Source of the DNA: Tetmemena sp. SeJ-2015
Lineage: Eukaryota > Ciliophora > Spirotrichea > Sporadotrichida > Oxytrichidae
NCBI GenBank assembly: GCA_027382625.1
Contig: JAJKFJ010022091.1
Location: 1 to 64,000 of the forward strand
Reading direction: 5' to 3'
DNA length: 64,000 bases
The notes under the pieces are model-generated. The model did not search any database and was not told the origin of the DNA. It was given only the letters and a program-made list of their open reading frames with translations. The translations under genes were made by a program, and so were the position numbers. Each line of letters begins with the position of its first letter. The first letter of the stretch is position 1. This document shows, piece by piece, positions 3,400-21,697 of the stretch.

Positions 3400-5486
3400 A
3401 TGGAGGGATCTAGAGAACCTACGCAAATCATTCAGCAGTGAGTTGTAACTTCCTATTCAAACCCTCTTCTATCTTTCCGTTTTATATCTTAAACTTCTAG
3501 AGCTTGAGTGGTCTTCCAGGTTCATACAACTACTCACAGGCGCCTTTTAATGGAGGGGCAGATAATGGCTATGGAGGACAGAGCACCAATCAGTTCTATT
3601 CAACTCTTAAAGGAGGCAGAGACAAGCTGAATATCGATGACATTGAAGGAGCAGCCCCAAGAAGATTTGTTGGTGTAAGCATCAGCATTAAGTAAAGTTA
3701 CTCTTTTAGTATACCGGAGCCAGACCAGATGTGTTGCTTCAAAAGGAACAAGCGCAGGTGGAGCAGTAGGAGAAAACTCACAGATTGAGTTTAGGAGCGA
3801 ATTTGACAGCTGTAAGGAAAATCTTTGAGTAAATTATTGAAAAATTGTTTTCGAAAATACTTGAATACACTTCATCTCTTATCCCTCTGCTATATTGTTC
3901 AGAACACGAGCTAATTGCTACCTGCCGGCTACAGACATCTAAATGGTGGGATAACCTTGGCGCCTTAAAACCCTGATCATTTTAAGACCTATGAGCAACG
4001 CCTTCTCAGGACTGATGACATTACAGGTGCGAAGCCTAAGCTCCATGGCATAAGAGTGGATGAATCTAGGTACGCAGGTAACTCTTCTGGAAACACCAAG
4101 ACCTACAAAAACGAGTCTCATGACATCTTAAACTAGCAAATTTAAGACTAGTAGCACCAGAATCAAACACTACCTGTAACTCAAGGCCACATCGCTCCAG
4201 CTGCTCTTCAGCAAAATGACCAAAGTTATTAAGGATTAAGAAGATCTTTGAACACTAGTTCAATGCCAAACTTGTAGCAAAACTATCAGTACTAAACCTC
4301 GTACAAAGCCAATTATTCACCAGCTAGGATGGATTATCAGAAGACTATGAAGCTTGCAAAGCCTATTTAGATTGATACTGAACTCATGCAAAGAGGCCAC
4401 GCTGAGATTATTTTCTACTCTAAGTTTTATAAATTCGATTGGTGGAGGCTTGAGCGGCTATTAAGGAGTGGGAAACTTAACAAGTACTTTTCAAACTAAC
4501 TATTAGAAGAACTTCAGTCCAACTCAGTCGCTTAAGAACATCTAAGATAAGCAACTTATGCAAAAGATATAAGGTCAGTTGGAGAAAGAAGATAGAGAGA
4601 AGGTTTCTGCTTTAATTTAGAAGTATTCTCCCGCTTAGACAAAGAAAATTTAGTTTATGGATTAGCAAGACTAGTAGTAGTAGTAATATCAAAGTGCGAA
4701 AGACAATTCAGAGATAGATAGACTATTTAATGACACTCTTGAAAATGAAATGAGAAAATATGAATCAACAGCCCGAGATAACGGATATTCTAATGCATTG
4801 ATTTAAAGAGAGGGTGAGAATGTAAATCAGAGCCTCAAGCATGATCCTTCAAAGCAAGCATTGATAAGAAATTCACTCCAGTTTAATGCTGAGAACTTAA
4901 TTGAAATATTGATTTTTGAAACATGATACATAACCCAAGTGCTGGTTCTCTCGCTGGTTTGAATACAAATGCAGCGCCTGTTACTACGATTAAGGATCAC
5001 AACTCATATCTCTAGCAACCCCAGAATATTCCCTCTTATCCAGGTTCTTCTTAGGGAGCATTAAGCAGCAGCCAAAAGTTTGATTATATGGCAAGTCAAA
5101 GCACCCAGCCTTATGCTATAAACCACAATGAAGTTACTTAAGTAATGAGATAGCATGCATCTCATGAGAACGATTAGGGAAGAGACTATAACTTAGGCTC
5201 TCATTAGAATGGAAACAACTTTGAGAAAATCTCCGAAAATCATAGCTAAAATCCCATTGACTAGTCAAACAGCAACAATAACAGACAATCACTTTAGAGT
5301 TCCATGGAGAGAACTTACAAAGCACTTAGCATGGCTCCCACGACTGACTAAGGAAGAGGTCATGAGTTTATTGATTTCAATATCTAAAACAGAGAATCCC
5401 TCAAGTATGGAAACAAGAATTCTAATGTTCCTTATGAGGAATTGTTGCCTAAGTTAAACGACATCAACTATCAGTTTTTTAAATGA
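3400..5486 (+). CDS. Q-rich protein with DDIxGAxP repeats, unknown function
   Basis: The open frame starts at ATG 3400 and ends at TGA 5484-5486. I infer three introns: about 3438-3503, one of 35 bp near 3676-3710, and one near 3812-3900. There are also two IESs (4410-4436 and 4897-4919). The N-terminal half carries two copies of a short motif, LNIDDIEGAAPRR and RTDDITGAKPK, each preceded by a glycine/asparagine-rich stretch (SYNYSQAPFNGG; GYRHLNGGI). The C-terminal half is low complexity, rich in Q, N and S, with runs of TAG/TAA glutamine codons. I do not recognise the family. The acidic-glycine repeats suggest a structural or docking role, but that is only a guess. Confidence 0.75.
4410..4436. 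other. IES, pointer GATT
   Basis: A 27-bp insert is flanked by GATT at 4406-4409 and 4437-4440. Removing 31 bp joins GHAEI to GGGLSGYQG in one frame. No GT-AG boundaries are present. Confidence 0.75.
4897..4919. other. IES, pointer AAC
   Basis: A 23-bp AT-rich insert is flanked by AAC at 4894-4896 and 4920-4922. Removing 26 bp takes out an in-frame TGA and joins the Q-rich left part to MIHNPSAGS on the right. Confidence 0.6.
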
Positions 5487-15713: not shown

Positions 15714-16509
15714 AAAAGTCTAGCCGCCTTCTCTTCAGCTTCAGAAATGAATAACCCTTTTTTCATCTCTGTTTTTAACTGATGCAAGATGCGCTGCTTG
15801 CTTTTCAATGAGCTTTCTACGAATTATAATTTGAAACTACTTCTCCTTGAACTTCTACTCCTCCTTATCTCTCCTTAATTTATCCATTTGTTCCTTCTTT
15901 CTCGCATACTCTTTGATTCTCTCCTCTTCGAGCGCTTCCTTTCTTCTGAGCTCTGCATTATAAGCCTGCAACTCATCGTTTGATAAGTTATAATCACTCC
16001 TATTCTTAGCTTGTTTCATCTTTCTTTCAAGCTCCTTTCTCCTCTCATTCTTGTATTCTTCTCTGTAAAAATTAGTTGCTTATCTTGAAATCATAAAGTT
16101 GCTGCTTGATAACTTTGGCCGTATCCATCTTCTTCTTGTGCTGTGCAGCTAGTTTCTCAGCCATCTTCTAGTCATAGTCATCCATCTACATTAACTCAAG
16201 CTCTCTACAGAAATGATGATGATGATGATAAAGATAGGGATTAAGTAATTTAGTTCTCTTTTCTTTTCTTAAGATCCAATTGGGCTTCTCTTTCCTGGAT
16301 TACATCGCAAAGAAGCATCTTAGAATGAAAGGCCTTCACTTTATCTAAAGTGATATAAATAAACACTCCAAGATTCTTTTCTCGAGATTCATCTGATCCT
16401 CTATTTCATCTATTCTTCGTCGCTCCATCTAAAACACATTTATAAATCACATCAAACTTCAAATAAAATCACTAGAAATTTAATCTCTCTTCTTTAGCCT
16501 GGAATAGCT
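15714..16509 (-). CDS. CFAP210 (CCDC173), even-numbered MDS cluster of a scrambled gene
   Basis: CFAP210 is a coiled-coil microtubule inner protein of cilia. This block holds seven MDSs that fit between the odd MDSs at 17123-18520: MDS2 16484-16509, MDS4 16373-16481, MDS6 16253-16341, MDS8 16078-16203, MDS10 16000-16051, MDS12 15762-15982, MDS14 15714-15742. MDS6 encodes the family hallmark KAFHSKMLLCDVIQEREAQ and MDS8 encodes DYDQKMAEKLAAQHKKKMDT. Pointers at the ends, in gene sense, are AGCTATTCC, AAAGAAGAGAGA, AAATTT, GAGAAAAGAAT, AAGTGAA, AAAAGAAAAGAGAAC, GAGCTT, AAGATAAGC, AGAATGAGAG, AGCTAAGAATAG, CAAACG, AGAGATGAA, GAAGCT and GCTAGACTTTT. Read straight through, the block is frame-broken. 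Confidence 0.93.
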
Positions 16510-16570
16510 ATCCTCAAAATAAAGCATAACTAGTGTTTTACAAAAGTTTTATGTTATTGTAATTGAGAAA

Positions 16571-17011
16571 TCAAGATAAAGTTTTCTGGGGAGATAAATA
16601 AGAGTTGAGAATAAGGTTTTCTATCTGATGATAATCACTTAAGTTTGATTTCTTGATAATGACAGTCTTGTGTTCCAGGTATTGAGAGAGTCCTTTCTCT
16701 CTATGAATTTCGTCAAATAAATCCTCCGAATGGAGTGCTTGCATCAGAAAATGAAATATTTTCTCTCTTGATTACCTCCTCAAGAGTTGAGTATCTTGTA
16801 AACCTCTTCCTTTATGATAGTCAACTCACTTTATTTTCCTTGCTCTTAAGCTTAGTCAATGTATCTGAGAATCTTTTTGTCTTATATATTAGAATCAGGA
16901 TCCTGAGGATGTTCCAGTTTTGCATTTAAAATACTTTTCGTGAACATAGACTCTTTGATACCAGATCATATTAAAAGTAGTACCCTAGCCTTGCCGACTG
17001 TGGGGCCATAA
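16571..17011 (-). CDS. Aldehyde dehydrogenase, even-numbered MDS cluster of a scrambled gene
   Basis: Eight small MDSs supply exactly the pieces missing from the main ALDH block: 16987-17011 (GPTVGK), 16934-16958 (VYVHEK), 16891-16912 (HPQDPDS), 16837-16876 (KILRYIDQAQEQG), 16800-16823 (TIIKEEV), 16763-16791 (TLEEVIKR), 16720-16748 (SDASTPFGGF) and 16571-16701 (EKGLSQYLEHKTVIIKK to TGA). Pointers of 4-13 bp at each edge match the main block, among them TTATGGC, TCAAAGAGTCTA, CTCAACTCTT and CATTCGGAGGATT. The block lies between the two halves of the scrambled CFAP210 gene. Alone it encodes nothing. The MDSs are very short, 22-40 bp except the last. Confidence 0.93.
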
Positions 17012-17122
17012 TGAATTAATATTTTAGCCACAAATAGCTTAATTTTTAAATTTAGCCAAATATCAGAAAATTTTGAGCGATAATTCACATTCTAATGATC
17101 ATTTTCGATCCGCAAAGTTCAA

Positions 17123-18520
17123 TCATATCACATTTTTCTTATAATTCTTGAGCTCTAAAATAAGGGGAGTCACATTCTTTCCTAGATCTTGCCACTCCTT
17201 TATGCATCTCTCAGCGTATGAGTAGAATTATTTCTCGTTCTAGTCTAAAAGAGCTCTATGCTTATGAGCTTCTCCAAGCTCTCTCTTGAACTCTTCCTCA
17301 ATTCTCTAAGTTTTAGCATCAGCCTGGCGCTTCTAATAACTTTTCAATTCTGTGTTTCTCTATCTGATCTCCTCTTTCTCCTGCTCTTCCATGACAGCCA
17401 ACTCTTCGTTTCTAATTTTCCAAAACTCGGCAAACTCTTTCTCGTCCTTCATCATTCCATGTCTCTCTACTTGTCTCTTTTCGATTTGATGTTTCCTTGA
17501 TTTTTCAATCTACTACTGCATTTCCAATCTCTTCCTTTCCTTCTCTTCAAAAAGTCTAGCTTAATTTTCTTAAGCTTCGGAAACTTGCTTATTCAAGATT
17601 TCTTCATCTCTTAGAAATAAAGAACTTTCCGAGTGTTAATGAGCTTTTGTCTAACCTCTTACTTCTCTATTATTTTCTATACCGTTTGCTCTTTTGAATT
17701 CTTCTCTATTCTTAGCTCTTTTATTTCTTCTCTCATTCTCCATATTTTCTTCAACCTACTTCTTTATAAGTCGTCCCTCCAATCTGTCGTTCTTTAACTT
17801 TTTTATGTGGCTTATCTTAATTTCAATACTATATCAATCTAAGCTCCTACCACTGTTATTCAATGTTCTTGTCAATGTTCTCTTTTCTTTTTAACTATAG
17901 TGAGTTTCACTTGATCTTATTAGTCGTGCATTTTCTTGTTAGCAGCCTCAATTGCTTGAATTCTTTTCTCCAATAGAACAATATATGTGTACCTATAACT
18001 TCAAATAAGTGTGATTATTAAATTTGAAAAAAACTCAAATTTGGCCAGGTTTAGAGCTTGTTCAAACCTTTATTTCAATGCACTTACTTCTTCATCGTAG
18101 AGTCTTTTGAGTTTTTCCTCTTCCCTCTTTTTACGTTAGGCTTCGATAGTGTTTGGCCAATTTTAAACTCTGGCTTTGGACTTATCTTGCAGCTCTTTTC
18201 GCTGCTTCATGAAAAATTCTTATTCCGACTGTTATGGAACCAGGGCACATTCAATAATCTATAATTATAGAAGAATAAGATTCTACTATTTTTATGATTG
18301 TTCCTTGATCCTTTCAATATCATCGATAGTGACCACAGCCGTGTTTTTGTTACTGATGTCAGAGGGTTTCTCTCTTCTTTCTAACTATTTATATGGGAAT
18401 AGCTGTGCCAACCATTCGCATGCCGCTTTGTGCAAGAGATTTCACCGATTCAGCTCTGTTCATAGGCCTAGAAGAGCCAGCAGACTTGAGTCCTGCTCTC
18501 GATCCACTTCTTAAAGACAT
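17123..18520 (-). CDS. CFAP210 (CCDC173), odd-numbered MDS cluster of a scrambled gene
   Basis: MDS1 18396-18520 starts MSLRSGSRAGLKSAGS. MDS3 18037-18380 encodes VVTIDDIERIKEQS, then RKELQDKSKARVQNWPNTIE; it contains an IES at 18237-18291. The others are MDS5 17906-17970, MDS7 17841-17891, MDS9 17730-17818, MDS11 17683-17717, MDS13 17573-17611 and MDS15 17123-17560. MDS15 encodes FAEFWKIRNEELAVMEEQ and YAERCIKEWQDLGKNVTPL, ending at TGA 17123-17125. Alternating these with the even block and merging pointers gives 517 codons including the stop, an exact multiple of three, after removing one 98-bp intron (starts 18087, ends 16429). Length is close to animal CFAP210 as I remember it. The product is a Lys/Glu-rich coiled coil. 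Confidence 0.93.
18237..18291. other. IES of 55 bp, pointer CATAA, inside MDS3 of CFAP210
   Basis: TTATG (CATAA in gene sense) occurs at 18232-18236 and 18292-18296. Removal joins IKEQSQ to QSEQEFFMKQRKEL. The segment is open in frame, so the evidence is the in-phase repeat, the AT richness and the fit to the family. Confidence 0.7.
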
Positions 18521-18574
18521 TTTAATTTAATACTTATTCTTCTAGTCAGTTGAAGAAAGTCCAATTAATTTTCA

Positions 18575-18595
18575 ACACACACACACACACACACA
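18575..18595. repeat. (AC)n microsatellite
   Basis: About ten AC units lie between the start of the CFAP210 odd block and the end of the ALDH odd block. Confidence 0.9.
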
Positions 18596-18681
18596 TCAAT
18601 TATTACTCCCTGGATTCATTAGATTGTATCACTTGGGGCAGCCCTCTCCTCTCTTGATAAAACGAAATTGAAAGTTTTACC

Positions 18682-20331
18682 TTCTCTCCAAGTTCTCTTC
18701 CAATTCCTGAATCCTTGAATCCTCCGAATGTAAATTCTCAAAGCATCAGAGGTGTCATAGCAGTTGACATAAACTGACCCAGCTCTGACAGAGTTAGCAA
18801 AGGTCATGGCAGTATCAAGACTTCTGGTGATGATACCAGCTCCCAAGCCATACTTTGAGCTGTTTGCTCTCTTTAAGTTTTCAAAGAGTTGAGAACTTCA
18901 GGATTTGCTGAACTGGCCCGAAAACCTCAATTATATGTTGATAGTCATGTCATCTGTGCAATCAGCAATTATAGTGGGCTCAATAAAGAATCCCTTATCT
19001 CCAAGTCTCTTGCCTCCACACAGAAGTTTACCTCCTTGCTAGACAATTATGATCAATCTTTGTGAACTGCTCGTTATCAATAACTGGTCCATACTCAGAA
19101 TCAGAATAATCATTTCTTTCTTAAATGTCCCATCTTTTAGTTCTTAGTGGCTTCGACTGCTCTCTTGACAAATTCATCGTATATCTTTTCGTTAACTTCC
19201 CAACTTATTTGCTTAGACTCTTTGAGCGGCAACACATGATTAGCCTGAATTGGCGAAGGTGGCAAACTGAGAAACCTCGATAGCAAGGCCTGACTCAAGA
19301 TCAGCATCGTCCATGACTACGCAAGGAGATTTACCTCCAAGCTCAAGAGTGATTCTCTTGATGTTGTGCACATGAGAGGACTTCATAATCTCGTATCCAA
19401 CCTCAGTTGAGCCAGTGAAGGCAACTTTGTCCACAAGAGCATGCTGAGCAAGAGCCTTGCAAAATTAAAAGAGCCATAACCAGTTAAGATATTAACAACA
19501 CCAGGAGGGAAACCTGCCTCAACAATCAATTCACCAATTCTAAGAGCTGAAAGTGGAGTCTGCTCAGCTGGCTTCAAAACCACGGTGCAACCAGCAGCAA
19601 GGGCTGGGGCAAGTTTCCAGGCAAGCATCAAAGCTGGGAAGTTCCAAGGGATGATGATTGTTATATCTTAAATACTCCAACTGGCTCTGGTCTGGTGAAG
19701 CACATATAATCTCCATAAATGGGAATAGTTTGACCATGAATCTTCATATAAAATCTAATCACAATAATAAATGCAGATTTTAAGGGATGATGGCTGCAAC
19801 TACTCCATGAAAAGATCTATAAATTTTTAGGCCATGAATCTTGTCTGCCCATCCAGCATAGTATCTGAAAGTCTACACAACACCAGCGAAGTCTAGAGCT
19901 CTGCACATGCTTACAGGCTTTCCGTTATCCATAGACTCCAAAACTACAAGCTCATCTAAGTTTTGCTCAATCAAGTCAGCAAGCTTTAAATTTAGCTCAA
20001 ATTCATTTTATTAGCTCATTTATTGTAAGCTTGTGAAGAAGCTTGCTCTTTTCAAATGCAGGCATGTTTCTCCATTCACCTTCGTCGAATGCTTTTCTTG
20101 CAGCCTATACAGCTAACTCAGCATCCTCGGCACCAGCTTCCTGGACTGAGGCGATGATTTCTTCAGTGCCTGGGTTCACTGTATATTCAAATTAAACTTT
20201 ATTGCGCGATGTGAATTTAGATTAAATTTTAGAATAGTGAAGGTCTTTCCTGACTTTGAGTCAACGAATTCACCATTGATGAGGAGCTTGGTAGCTCTAA
20301 TTGCAACTGCGGGTACTAGCTTGTCAACCAT
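18682..20331 (-). CDS. Aldehyde dehydrogenase, main (odd) MDS cluster of a scrambled gene
   Basis: This NAD(P)-dependent enzyme would oxidise aldehydes to acids. It starts [20 protein letters not shown] at ATG 20331. Seen are [73 protein letters not shown] (catalytic Glu) and [14 protein letters not shown] (catalytic Cys; the Gln codon is TAA at 19240-19242). After P_VNILTGYG the block breaks repeatedly: edges lie at 19473/19460, 19214/19192, 19125/19104, 19055/19040, 18939/18928, 18884/18873, 18743/18730 and 18682. Each gap is filled by a piece from 16571-17011. Conventional IESs lie at 20183-20236 (pointer AC) and 19987-20026, and one small MDS is displaced (19782-19806). The joined gene has 515 codons including the stop, typical for ALDH. 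Confidence 0.95.
19782..19806 (-). other. Displaced 25-bp MDS of the ALDH gene
   Basis: This piece sits inside an 87-bp segment bounded by the 11-bp repeat AAGATTCATGG (19734-19744 and 19832-19842). It belongs about 130 bp further down, between 19673-19678 (pointer GGAGTA) and 19646-19655 (pointer ATCATCCCTT). Inserted there it gives [14 protein letters not shown], the ALDH consensus. Without it the gene reads VFKI and shifts frame. Confidence 0.92.
19987..20026. other. IES of 40 bp, pointer AAGCTT
   Basis: AAGCTT, palindromic here, occurs at 19981-19986 and 20027-20032. Removing 46 bp restores [18 protein letters not shown] and deletes an in-frame TGA. Confidence 0.92.
20183..20236. other. 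IES of 54 bp, pointer AC
   Basis: The dinucleotide GT (AC in gene sense) lies at 20181-20182 and 20237-20238. Removal joins SKSGKTF to TVNPGTEEI. The whole ALDH reading frame is an exact multiple of three only with this removal. Confidence 0.85.
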
Positions 20332-20662: not shown

Positions 20663-20953
20663 ATGTTGGCTTTCAATAAACTCAGACCCCTCTTGAACAG
20701 AGTCCTCGTCAGAAAGGTAGACCCCGTCACCAAGACCAAGAGCGGAATCTTGCTTCCTGAGAACTCAGCTGAGAAGCTGAACTTCGGAACTGTGATCGCA
20801 GTGGGCCCAGGCAGATACATGGACAACGGACAGATCAAGCAAGTCAACGTGAAGGAAGGCGACACCGTGCTCCTACCCGAGTATGGCGGCTCTAAGGTTA
20901 CCCTTGCAGACAACGTTGAGTACTACATCTACAGAGATGATGACATTTACTAA
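20663..20953 (+). CDS. 10-kDa chaperonin (Cpn10/GroES), mitochondrial
   Basis: A complete 96-residue frame, MLAFNKLRPLLNRVLVRK to YYIYRDDDIY, closes in the TGA-only code after one extra in-frame TAA glutamine. Seen are the GroES fold elements VLVRKVDPVTKTKSGILLP (mobile loop with the hydrophobic IL pair), GTVIAVGPG and GDTVLLPEYGG. It is the co-chaperone that caps Hsp60 in the mitochondrial matrix. The coding region is clearly more GC-rich than its surroundings and has no intron, IES or scrambling, so it may be a single MDS. Length is normal for the family. Confidence 0.96.
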   Translation: MLAFNKLRPLLNRVLVRKVDPVTKTKSGILLPENSAEKLNFGTVIAVGPGRYMDNGQIKQVNVKEGDTVLLPEYGGSKVTLADNVEYYIYRDDDIY

Positions 20954-21697
20954 AGAGGGATATTCATCAAAAGTAATTTAAATTTATTACAAATTGTTGG
21001 CACCCTCCACGAACCCTCCAAGTGAGTCTATCAATAACAAAATTAAAAAAAGAAGGTTCTTAAATTAGTAATTTTAGTATTCATTTCGAGATAATTTGAG
21101 TTAAATAAAAGAAAGGACTCAGAGTTTTACTTTAAAAATTAATTGTATTTAGATTAAATATGAGTCTAAGGATGAAGCAGAGCATAATATAAAACAAATT
21201 GTTAGAATTAAGACATATACAAACACTCCTTAGAATTAGATCATCCTTTGCACTAATTCCATAAACATTCTAATAATCATGCTCTCAGTTTATTGTCTCT
21301 TGCCTTGTACGTTGTTATTTAAATTACATAAATATTTTAAACAATTTGTAATGTATAGTCTTAATTTATTTGAAGAATGATTTCTTTATCTTCTTTTTTT
21401 AATTTTTAATTCATTAAAATACTTTGTTTAGATAGTCTAGGCAACAAACAAGTCTTATTTGTTTATTATGGCTGTGTGATTTATCCCAAAATGAGGAATC
21501 TCTGCATCTTTGTTTATATCTTTCTTCATTTGCAATCTAAGTGTTTAAGTTAGTTAAACAGTCGAATTAAATCATCATCTATCATCCAAATAGAGCAAAG
21601 TTAATGTAGCTGATTTTAATGAATGTAATTAGCGCTCAGCTTAAGAGAAGAATTTACAGTATTATAATTTAATAAGTTAATAATTATAATTTCTAAA
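20954..21697. other. AT-rich intergenic DNA
   Basis: No open frame of substance and no recognisable repeat. It probably contains the 3' end of the Cpn10 locus, germline-limited spacer and the 5' flank of the next gene. Confidence 0.5.

Follow-up and report, generated by a model that had tools for sequence, protein, structure and literature searches.

Two genes, ALDH and CFAP210, lie in pieces on the minus strand of the window, i.e. the 64,000-nucleotide stretch of Tetmemena sp. SeJ-2015 DNA analysed here, and the question is whether they are two scrambled loci that became braided or a single one. According to the original prediction each gene is split into an even and an odd block on the same strand, each locus lies within the span of the other, and the braid could have arisen when a duplicated scrambled block of one gene inserted into the duplication of the other. 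The joined pieces bear out the split, and the blocks follow each other along the plus coordinate in the expected order (CFAP210-even, ALDH-even, CFAP210-odd, ALDH-odd). The mutual enclosure was also recovered, the even pieces of each gene lying beyond the odd pieces of the other, and the alternation, the pointers and the intactness of both genes once joined agree with the proposed ciliate-type germline locus with odd-even scrambling. The notion of two separate loci braided by block insertion is not supported: one partition and one repeat word of 32 pointers serve both genes.

Layout of the locus

The locus consists of 39 short MDSs, all on the minus strand, which are dealt between two blocks and cover ALDH and CFAP210 (Table 1). 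They are joined by 38 pointers of 2-13 bp, found at 38/38 junctions, to a sequence of 3,270 bp in which both frames are open with TAA and TAG read as Gln (table 6). TGA is then the sole remaining stop and Stylonychia the closest relative with a name, which suggests a hypotrich-like ciliate. The density is 11.9 MDSs per kb (39 MDSs in 3.27 kb). Pointers at the scrambled junctions (n=35) measure 4-13 bp with a mean of 8.7 and are longer than those at the three nonscrambled junctions (2, 6 and 3 bp). Pointers had been predicted at every scrambled edge, which is what we find; the range given was 4-15 bp.

Alternation between the blocks is unbroken from MDS6 to MDS39 if MDS24/25 is counted as one, and it crosses the gene boundary: MDS20 is odd, MDS21 even, MDS22 (ALDH end, 108 bp and CFAP210 start) odd and MDS23 even. 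The outer pieces of ALDH and CFAP210 are located in the same block, and a single block boundary is common to both genes. The pointer word resolves without remainder into two repeat words: 32 pointers (6-23, 25-38) make up the one that spans both genes, three (3, 4, 5) the other. Locally, the order within the odd block is MDS3-5-4-6, a small separate odd-even scramble nested in the main locus. The predicted division into even and odd blocks thus holds, but the odd block is not purely odd since MDS5 precedes MDS4, and CFAP210 additionally carries a nonscrambled IES of 48 bp.

Table 1. Positions in the window of the blocks, MDSs and intron parts of the ALDH-CFAP210 locus
Feature	Gene, block	Positions	Strand	Pointer	Remarks
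Odd block		17123..20331	-		23/39 MDSs, 5'-3': 1,2,3,5,4,6,8,10,12,14,16,18,20,22,24,25,27,29,31,33,35,37,39
Even block		15714..17011	-		16/39 MDSs, 5'-3': 7,9,11,13,15,17,19,21,23,26,28,30,32,34,36,38
MDS1	ALDH, odd	20235..20331	-	TA (to MDS2)	start codon at 20331
MDS2	ALDH, odd	20027..20183	-	AAGCTT	
MDS3	ALDH, odd	19832..19986	-	AAGATTCATGG	
MDS4	ALDH, odd	19673..19744	-	TGGAGTA	locally permuted, after MDS5
MDS5	ALDH, odd	19782..19807	-	ATCATCCCTT	26 bp, before MDS4
MDS6	ALDH, odd	19473..19655	-	TTATGGC	
MDS7	ALDH, even	16987..17011	-	CAAGGCT	
MDS8	ALDH, odd	19214..19459	-	CAAAGAGTCTA	
MDS9	ALDH, even	16934..16957	-	ACGAAAAG	
MDS10	ALDH, odd	19125..19192	-	ACAT	4 bp, shortest scrambled pointer
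MDS11	ALDH, even	16891..16912	-	CTGATTCT	sole gap unfilled in gap-filling test
MDS12	ALDH, odd	19055..19104	-	AAAGATT	
MDS13	ALDH, even	16837..16876	-	AGCAAGGA	
MDS14	ALDH, odd	18939..19040	-	TGACTATCA	
MDS15	ALDH, even	16800..16823	-	GAGGTTT	
MDS16	ALDH, odd	18884..18928	-	CTCAACTCTT	
MDS17	ALDH, even	16763..16791	-	AAGAGAG	
MDS18	ALDH, odd	18743..18873	-	TCTGATGC	
MDS19	ALDH, even	16720..16748	-	CATTCGGAGGATT	
MDS20	ALDH, odd	18682..18730	-	GAGAGAA	
MDS21	ALDH, even	16651..16701	-	TTATCAAGA	
MDS22	ALDH/CFAP210, odd	18396..18660	-	AGCTATTCC (to MDS23)	ALDH C-terminus and stop (to 18629)
MDS22, inner parts	ties ALDH to CFAP210	18628-18521; 18520	-		108-bp spacer; CFAP210 start codon
MDS23	CFAP210, even	16484..16509	-	AAGAAGAGAGA	
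MDS24	CFAP210, odd	18297..18379	-	AAT	followed by nonscrambled 48-bp IES (MDS24/25)
MDS25	CFAP210, odd	17997..18251	-	TTATTTGAAGTT	pointer within intron
Predicted intron, 5' part (GTAAGT...)	CFAP210, odd	17997..18087	-		
MDS26	CFAP210, even	16373..16466	-	GAGAAAAGAAT	
Predicted intron, 3' part (...TTTTAG)	CFAP210, even	16429..16466	-		
MDS27	CFAP210, odd	17906..17970	-	AAGTGAA	
MDS28	CFAP210, even	16253..16341	-	AAGAAAAGAGAAC	
MDS29	CFAP210, odd	17841..17889	-	GAGCTT	
MDS30	CFAP210, even	16078..16203	-	AAGATAAGC	
MDS31	CFAP210, odd	17730..17818	-	GAATGAGAG	
MDS32	CFAP210, even	16000..16050	-	GCTAAGAATAG	
MDS33	CFAP210, odd	17683..17716	-	CAAACG	
MDS34	CFAP210, even	15838..15982	-	GAGAAGTA	
MDS35	CFAP210, odd	17638..17667	-	AAAGCTCATT	
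MDS36	CFAP210, even	15762..15816	-	AGAGATGAA	
MDS37	CFAP210, odd	17573..17611	-	GAAGCT	
MDS38	CFAP210, even	15714..15742	-	GCTAGACTTTT	29 bp, optional
MDS39	CFAP210, odd	17123..17560	-		runs to TGA stop

The joined genes

Joined ALDH encodes 496 amino acids plus stop and covers the Pfam Aldedh profile in full (1-461/461). The part encoded by MDS1-16 aligns without gaps to the 399-amino-acid protein P0033 from a 1,568-bp contig, with agreement at 29/31 even-block and 352/368 odd-block residues. At its end the gene returns to the odd block via the 9-bp pointer TTATCAAGA, giving the C-terminus ..VIIKRGEGCPK; this pointer is preferred because the homologs end a few residues past VIIK (..VIIKRPAI and ..VIMKKKLK). 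For the same reason two other ends were dropped, namely a first version with the 7-bp pointer AAGTGAT (..SDTIQ) and the read-on in the even block that underlies the predicted 515 codons; the predicted open frame of ALDH stands, its length does not.

Joined CFAP210 encodes 517 amino acids plus stop (the prediction had counted the stop among 517 codons), matches the TPH profile and aligns without gaps to two relatives of 517 amino acids (P0001, P0002). An initial join of 557 amino acids used wrong pointers at three places and was replaced after alignment with P0001-P0003; because the joins were corrected with the homologs already in view, the gap-free fit is partly by construction. The exact frame claimed for this gene is found, with the correction that a predicted GT..AG intron of 117 nt has to be removed. 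When a direct DNA join was tried instead, no frame-keeping shared repeat was found by eye and the stretch ran into TGA, which is why the intron is preferred. A 12-bp pointer cuts the predicted intron, the halves of which sit in different blocks, so that it must be assembled from both. For MDS38 there is an alternative, as a 29-bp odd-block stretch in the same slot is also open; using MDS38 lifts the identity from 406 to 409/517 with P0001 and from 367 to 370/517 with P0002.

Scrambling versus chance and decay

Gap filling was scored with fixed rules: a piece had to carry pointers of at least 5 bp at both ends, have the exact length, contain no stop and be at least 50% identical to a homolog. 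Junction positions were those of the present assembly, in the controls as in the real stretch. The even block fills 15/16 gaps, the miss being MDS11 with its 4-bp pointer. Seventy-four control stretches of the same window gave 20 fillings in total (mean 0.27, maximum 2), and the reversed even block and its opposite strand gave one each. As judged from the protein alignments, conservation is the same for residues from the even and from the odd block in both genes: CFAP210 is identical to P0001 at 123/159 even-block and 283/358 odd-block residues, ALDH to P0032 at 50/57 and 359/435.

A DNA search of the 146-Mb assembly with bases 1-1,974 of the 3,270-bp joined sequence, a query that takes in ALDH and at most the first third of CFAP210, returned 12 matches in four candidates, and no near-identical intact copy elsewhere. 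Near-identical matches to this query were confined to the contig of the window; paralogs of ALDH and CFAP210 occur on C3515 and C3241. The Stylonychia lemnae ALDH gave 38 matches in the same genome, those outside the locus being 23-77% identical, and viral contigs scanned with P0002 gave no match.

That the locus is a pair of pseudogenes left by decay of a tandem duplicate, or an artefact of the assembly, is made extremely improbable by the filled gaps, the equal conservation, the pointers at all junctions with frames open throughout and the result of the 1,974-nt copy search.

One two-gene chromosome or two

The germline sequence suggests that the locus is probably one ordinary odd-even scrambled two-gene nanochromosome, with ALDH followed by CFAP210. 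During development of the somatic nucleus, the 39 pieces alternating between the odd (23) and the even block (16) would be joined; pointer pairs would recombine as in Oxytricha, each IES being swapped for the MDS that corresponds to it in the other block. MDS22, with the ALDH stop, the spacer and the CFAP210 start, would stay whole, so that both genes would leave as one chromosome.

For both of the closest S. lemnae homologs, those of CFAP210 (P0002, 517 amino acids) and ALDH (P0034, 499 amino acids), the longest contig listed measures 3,485 bp, a coincidence that does not prove them to share one contig. Coding sequence for both genes with stops takes 3,054 bp and leaves 431. For comparison, the S. 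lemnae ortholog of the next gene in the window, HSP10, has a contig of 3,065 bp, and a second ALDH of this species one of 1,862 bp. In S. lemnae 2,364 two-gene contigs were reported (PMC4122937), and 36% of its two-gene nanochromosomes are described as carrying both genes on one strand (PMC10901763). A single scrambled two-gene unit, as suggested by the one partition, the unbroken alternation, the single repeat word and the 3,485-bp contigs, would explain the 'braid' without an insertion; the braid is likely one odd-even locus with its two genes drawn in two colours.

It is less probable that the same 39 pieces yield two nanochromosomes, which would be interleaved as defined by Braun 2018, by breakage and telomere addition in or near the 108-bp spacer; this reading includes the variant in which both a long and short isoforms are made. 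Such source numbers run consecutively within one record, and those of the Oxytricha-like homologs, 403349712 (CFAP210) and 403359289 (ALDH), are far apart, so that the two genes may sit on different contigs in that species; the window resembles both of these proteins more than it does the Stylonychia ones. Other CFAP210 relatives are found on contigs of ca. 1.5-1.8 kb, too short for both genes, which may be transcripts. Reports on Oxytricha also lend weight to two chromosomes, in that 48% of multigene nanochromosomes undergo alternative fragmentation, with a preference for sites between genes (PMC3558436), and 434 of 15,811 contigs (387 + 47) are interleaved (PMC5940158). Against it stand the shared 3,485-bp listing in S. 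lemnae and the spacer, which is short for two chromosome ends: 108 bp is small compared to the means reported for single-gene Oxytricha nanochromosomes, 210 bp downstream of the stop and 266 bp upstream of the start, with minima of 10 and 35 (PMC3558436). The interleaving criterion itself, an MDS of each chromosome within an IES of the other, is true if there are two chromosomes and void if there is one.

With similarly low probability, one odd-even weave would serve two somatic chromosomes, the pair being descrambled as a single unit, including the spacer and the intron put together from both blocks, and cut in the spacer later or alternatively. If so, the unit of scrambling would be the germline segment and not the chromosome or gene, and the interleaved pairs of other loci would be what is left of ancestral chromosomes with two genes.

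Origin of the scramble

According to the duplication-and-decay model (Gao et al. 2015, as cited in PMC9797194), the locus may have arisen when the gene pair was duplicated once in tandem and the two copies then decayed in a complementary way, which would make a second insertion unnecessary. Similarity between an IES and the MDS exchanged for it exceeded shuffles at p<0.05 in 0/29 slot pairs. Lengths of IES and MDS correlate only weakly over these pairs (rho 0.39, p 0.036, n=29), and in neither half significantly, with rho 0.40, p 0.14 (even, n=15) and rho 0.27, p 0.34 (odd, n=14). Slot 38, which is outside the 29 pairs, has equal lengths (29 and 29) and 6/12 interior bases alike. Block-to-block blastn gave one match over slots 36-38 (E 3.8e-4), mostly pointers, the rest being 0.007 or worse. 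Because of this weak trace and the 0/29 slots, the duplication is kept as the simplest history only, not as shown. That each gene was duplicated and scrambled by itself, one duplicated block then landing within the duplication of the other gene, is compatible with the final block order but very improbable: two duplications and an insertion would have to retain orientation, block order and odd-even phase across the 108-bp spacer, whereas one event accounts for everything.

Comparison with known systems

The locus is likely a further example of known odd-even scrambling, here running through two genes. Odd-even scrambled germline genes were described in Oxytricha (Mitcham 1992, as cited in PMC5940158), where odd-even operations account for 96% of the scrambled chromosomes (Braun; PMC5940158). 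As in the genes described there, alternate MDSs lie in two clusters with a pointer at each junction and the pointer list is a repeat word; unlike in those genes, a single repeat word passes through two genes. Braun's Table 3 (PMC5940158) already includes scrambled chromosomes that carry two or three genes. The locus is dense as well, with its 39 pieces in 3.27 kb (11.9 MDSs per kb) against 6.4 per kb given for scrambled Oxytricha chromosomes (PMC10901763).

The locus resembles interleaved or 'Russian doll' loci (PMC5940158; PMC9797194) in that one gene has pieces located between those of another. Those loci are defined for two somatic chromosomes, whereas the present genes most likely share one, and neither ALDH nor CFAP210 is whole inside an IES of the other. 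The apparent topological oddity thus becomes a simple rule for calling two scrambled genes interlaced: first check for a single alternating series of pieces and a common somatic chromosome. Should the same apply to the 434 contigs that are interleaved in Oxytricha (PMC5940158), some of these could descend from two-gene chromosomes that were split.

Stylonychia and Oxytricha have two-gene nanochromosomes (PMC4122937, PMC3558436, PMC10901763) with which the locus, described here from germline sequence, shares the common strand, the short spacer and a size of ca. 3.3-3.5 kb. A literature search for the ALDH-CFAP210 pair with Stylonychia and nanochromosome found none, and a published two-gene odd-even weave may exist.

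Coincidence of introns and IESs has been reported with 174 potential cases in three species (PMC9797194). As in those cases, a rearrangement junction meets an intron in CFAP210; unlike in the cases described there, the 12-bp pointer is inside the intron, which is built from two blocks. The predicted CFAP210 intron would exist only after DNA rearrangement, which makes the locus a compact example of how introns and IESs are related.

Joining of the scrambled pieces

The genes for ALDH and CFAP210 lie in pieces across positions 20331-15714 of the minus strand, and in the reconstruction 39 macronuclear-destined segments (MDSs) and 38 pointers give a sequence of 3,270 bp, which begins at the ALDH start codon and ends with the stop of CFAP210. 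The joins were anchored by hand first and then adjusted by alignment to relatives. The scrambled junctions (n=35) have pointers of 4-13 bp, with a mean of 8.7, and the three nonscrambled ones have pointers of 2, 6 and 3 bp; a run of at least 6 bp common to two random positions of the region occurs at a frequency of 0.0033. Odd-even scrambling as such was predicted correctly, the alternation being unbroken and the pointers forming repeat words, but the odd block is not purely odd, since MDS5 precedes MDS4 within it. MDS3-5-4-6 (19986-19473) thereby make up a further, smaller odd-even scramble nested in the odd block of ALDH. CFAP210 additionally contains a nonscrambled 48-bp intervening sequence (IES), and an (ATC)n run is present in an even-block IES at about 16230-16210.

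Coordinates of the two blocks, the predicted CFAP210 intron and the flanking genes
Feature	Position	Strand	Remarks
Odd block	20331-17123	minus	5'-3' MDS 1, 2, 3, 5, 4, 6, 8, 10, 12, 14, 16, 18, 20, 22, 24, 25, 27, 29, 31, 33, 35, 37, 39
Even block	17011-15714	minus	5'-3' MDS 7, 9, 11, 13, 15, 17, 19, 21, 23, 26, 28, 30, 32, 34, 36, 38
Predicted CFAP210 intron, 5' part (donor)	18087-17997	minus	odd block
Predicted CFAP210 intron, 3' part (acceptor)	16466-16429	minus	even block
HSP10/GroES gene (Cpn10)	20663-21025, or about 20663-20953	plus	flanking gene
Histone-fold (CBF/NF-Y type) gene	15640-15338	minus	flanking gene

Cleaner evidence than the homolog fit of the joins comes from a controlled gap-filling test, in which the even block filled 15 of the 16 gaps. 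The controls gave 20 fillings in total in 74 stretches (mean 0.27, maximum 2), and the reversed even block and its opposite strand gave one each. The original prediction that pieces of both genes are scrambled between two blocks is confirmed and refined.

The joined genes

The joined ALDH has 496 amino acids and matches the Pfam Aldedh profile over its full length (1-461 of 461); the draft matched solved ALDH structures across residues 6-488. Alignment to the relatives P0032, P0033 and P0034 (the last from S. lemnae) is gap-free, two of the three being short by 1 or 2 residues. Most ALDH joins were fixed before homologs were in view. Identity to P0032 is alike in both blocks (50/57 residues in the even, 359/435 in the odd block), and in the truncated P0033 (399 amino acids, 95% identical) pieces 1-16 follow one another as in the joined gene. 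In a correction of the original reading, the end of ALDH is placed outside the even block: MDS21, the last even piece of the gene, shares TTATCAAGA with the odd block, which leads back there to VIIKRGEGCPK and a stop at 18629.

The joined CFAP210 of 517 amino acids aligns without gaps to P0001 and the S. lemnae protein P0002 (517 amino acids each), a fit that is partly by construction because the joins were corrected with the same homologs in view; the remoter relatives P0035 and P0003 show two gaps each. Identity to P0001 is 123/159 residues in the even and 283/358 in the odd block, and a search with a draft hit CFAP210/FAP210 chains in solved structures (8g2z, E 8.3e-54). MDS38, the last even piece, is optional, as the 29 bp of the odd block whose place it would take are also open; its use lifts identity to P0001 from 406 to 409/517 and to P0002 from 367 to 370/517. 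The frame crosses a predicted GT..AG intron of 117 nt, which has a 12-bp pointer within it and so would exist only once the DNA is joined.

Paralogs and possible origin of the scramble

The assembly searched comprises 146,216,379 bases in 5,213 contigs. A DNA search of it with the first 1,974 joined bases gave near-identical matches only within the contig of the window, and ALDH matches elsewhere are paralogs. One of these (L025, G000:C3515:93000-101000, 5133-3209 minus) is scrambled in a different pattern, its 10 matched stretches following along the strand as residues 12-84, 82-251, 375-395, 402-451, 467-492, 177-215, 221-242, 248-373, 393-403 and 452-495; an ALDH gene has therefore been hit by scrambling at least twice in this genome. 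A CFAP210 paralog (L026, G000:C3241:6000-14000, 3815-5447 plus; 44-60% identical) is unscrambled and runs collinearly over 1.6 kb. As the 8 kb of L025 hold no CFAP210 match and the 8 kb of L026 no ALDH match, the pairing belongs to the window locus. At the site of the window intron L026 carries an interruption of ca. 36-40 bp which, with GAAGAA repeats on both sides and no GT..AG form, looks like an IES. Beyond this insert the paralog has one in-frame TGA.

The most economical account of the scramble is that the gene pair was duplicated once in tandem and the two copies then decayed in a complementary way, as in the model favoured by PMC9797194. The traces that this account predicts are weak or absent. 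In none of the 29 slots was the IES/MDS pair more alike than shuffles; IES and MDS lengths correlate over all 29 (rho 0.39, p 0.036), with neither half significant. These results are compatible with an old scramble, since weak similarity is reported in PMC9797194 for loci scrambled long ago. They fit equally well the model of MDS/IES recombination that the paper cites from Chang and Landweber.

A probable single scrambled unit

The original prediction described two separately scrambled loci, each inside the other's span. Most likely they are one odd-even unit. The decisive element is MDS22 (18660-18396), which carries the ALDH end, a 108-bp spacer and the CFAP210 start, and the alternation continues across it, MDS20 and MDS22 lying in the odd block and MDS21 and MDS23 in the even block. 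Once the nonscrambled pointers are taken out, the pointer list of the whole locus consists of 345345 and then a single repeat word of 32 pointers (6-23, 25-38), without remainder. Independently scrambled genes would not need common block borders and phase. A (TG)n run lies in the spacer at about 18600-18575.

Other hypotrichs give indications in both directions on whether the product is one chromosome. Against it, the source numbers of the Oxytricha-like CFAP210 and ALDH homologs are far apart, which suggests different contigs. Also, two genes that share a chromosome in one hypotrich may have separate ones in another species, as stated in PMC9797194. For the nearest S. lemnae CFAP210 and the nearest ALDH, however, the longest contig listed is 3,485 bp in each case; the two coding regions including stops sum to 3,054 bp, and the contig of the HSP10 neighbour is 3,065 bp. 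By a rough, uncomputed estimate, chance agreement to the base would be rare, given the mean nanochromosome length of 2,760 bp and the assembly of ca. 20,000 contigs reported for S. lemnae in PMC4122937. Two chromosome ends would hardly fit into the 108-bp spacer, as Oxytricha single-gene nanochromosomes have on average 266 bp 5' of the start codon and 210 bp 3' of the stop (minima 35 and 10), according to PMC3558436.

In Oxytricha, the old somatic nucleus supplies RNA templates that guide pointer recombination (summarized in PMC5940158). By analogy, paired pointers would allow each odd-block IES to be swapped for the matching even MDS, the even block would be consumed during the exchange, and a single ALDH-CFAP210 chromosome would result, with some copies perhaps also cut in the spacer. 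What looks like a braid is thus most likely a single two-gene nanochromosome with ordinary odd-even scrambling, a tidy and instructive case of the known odd-even kind whose architecture itself is not new.
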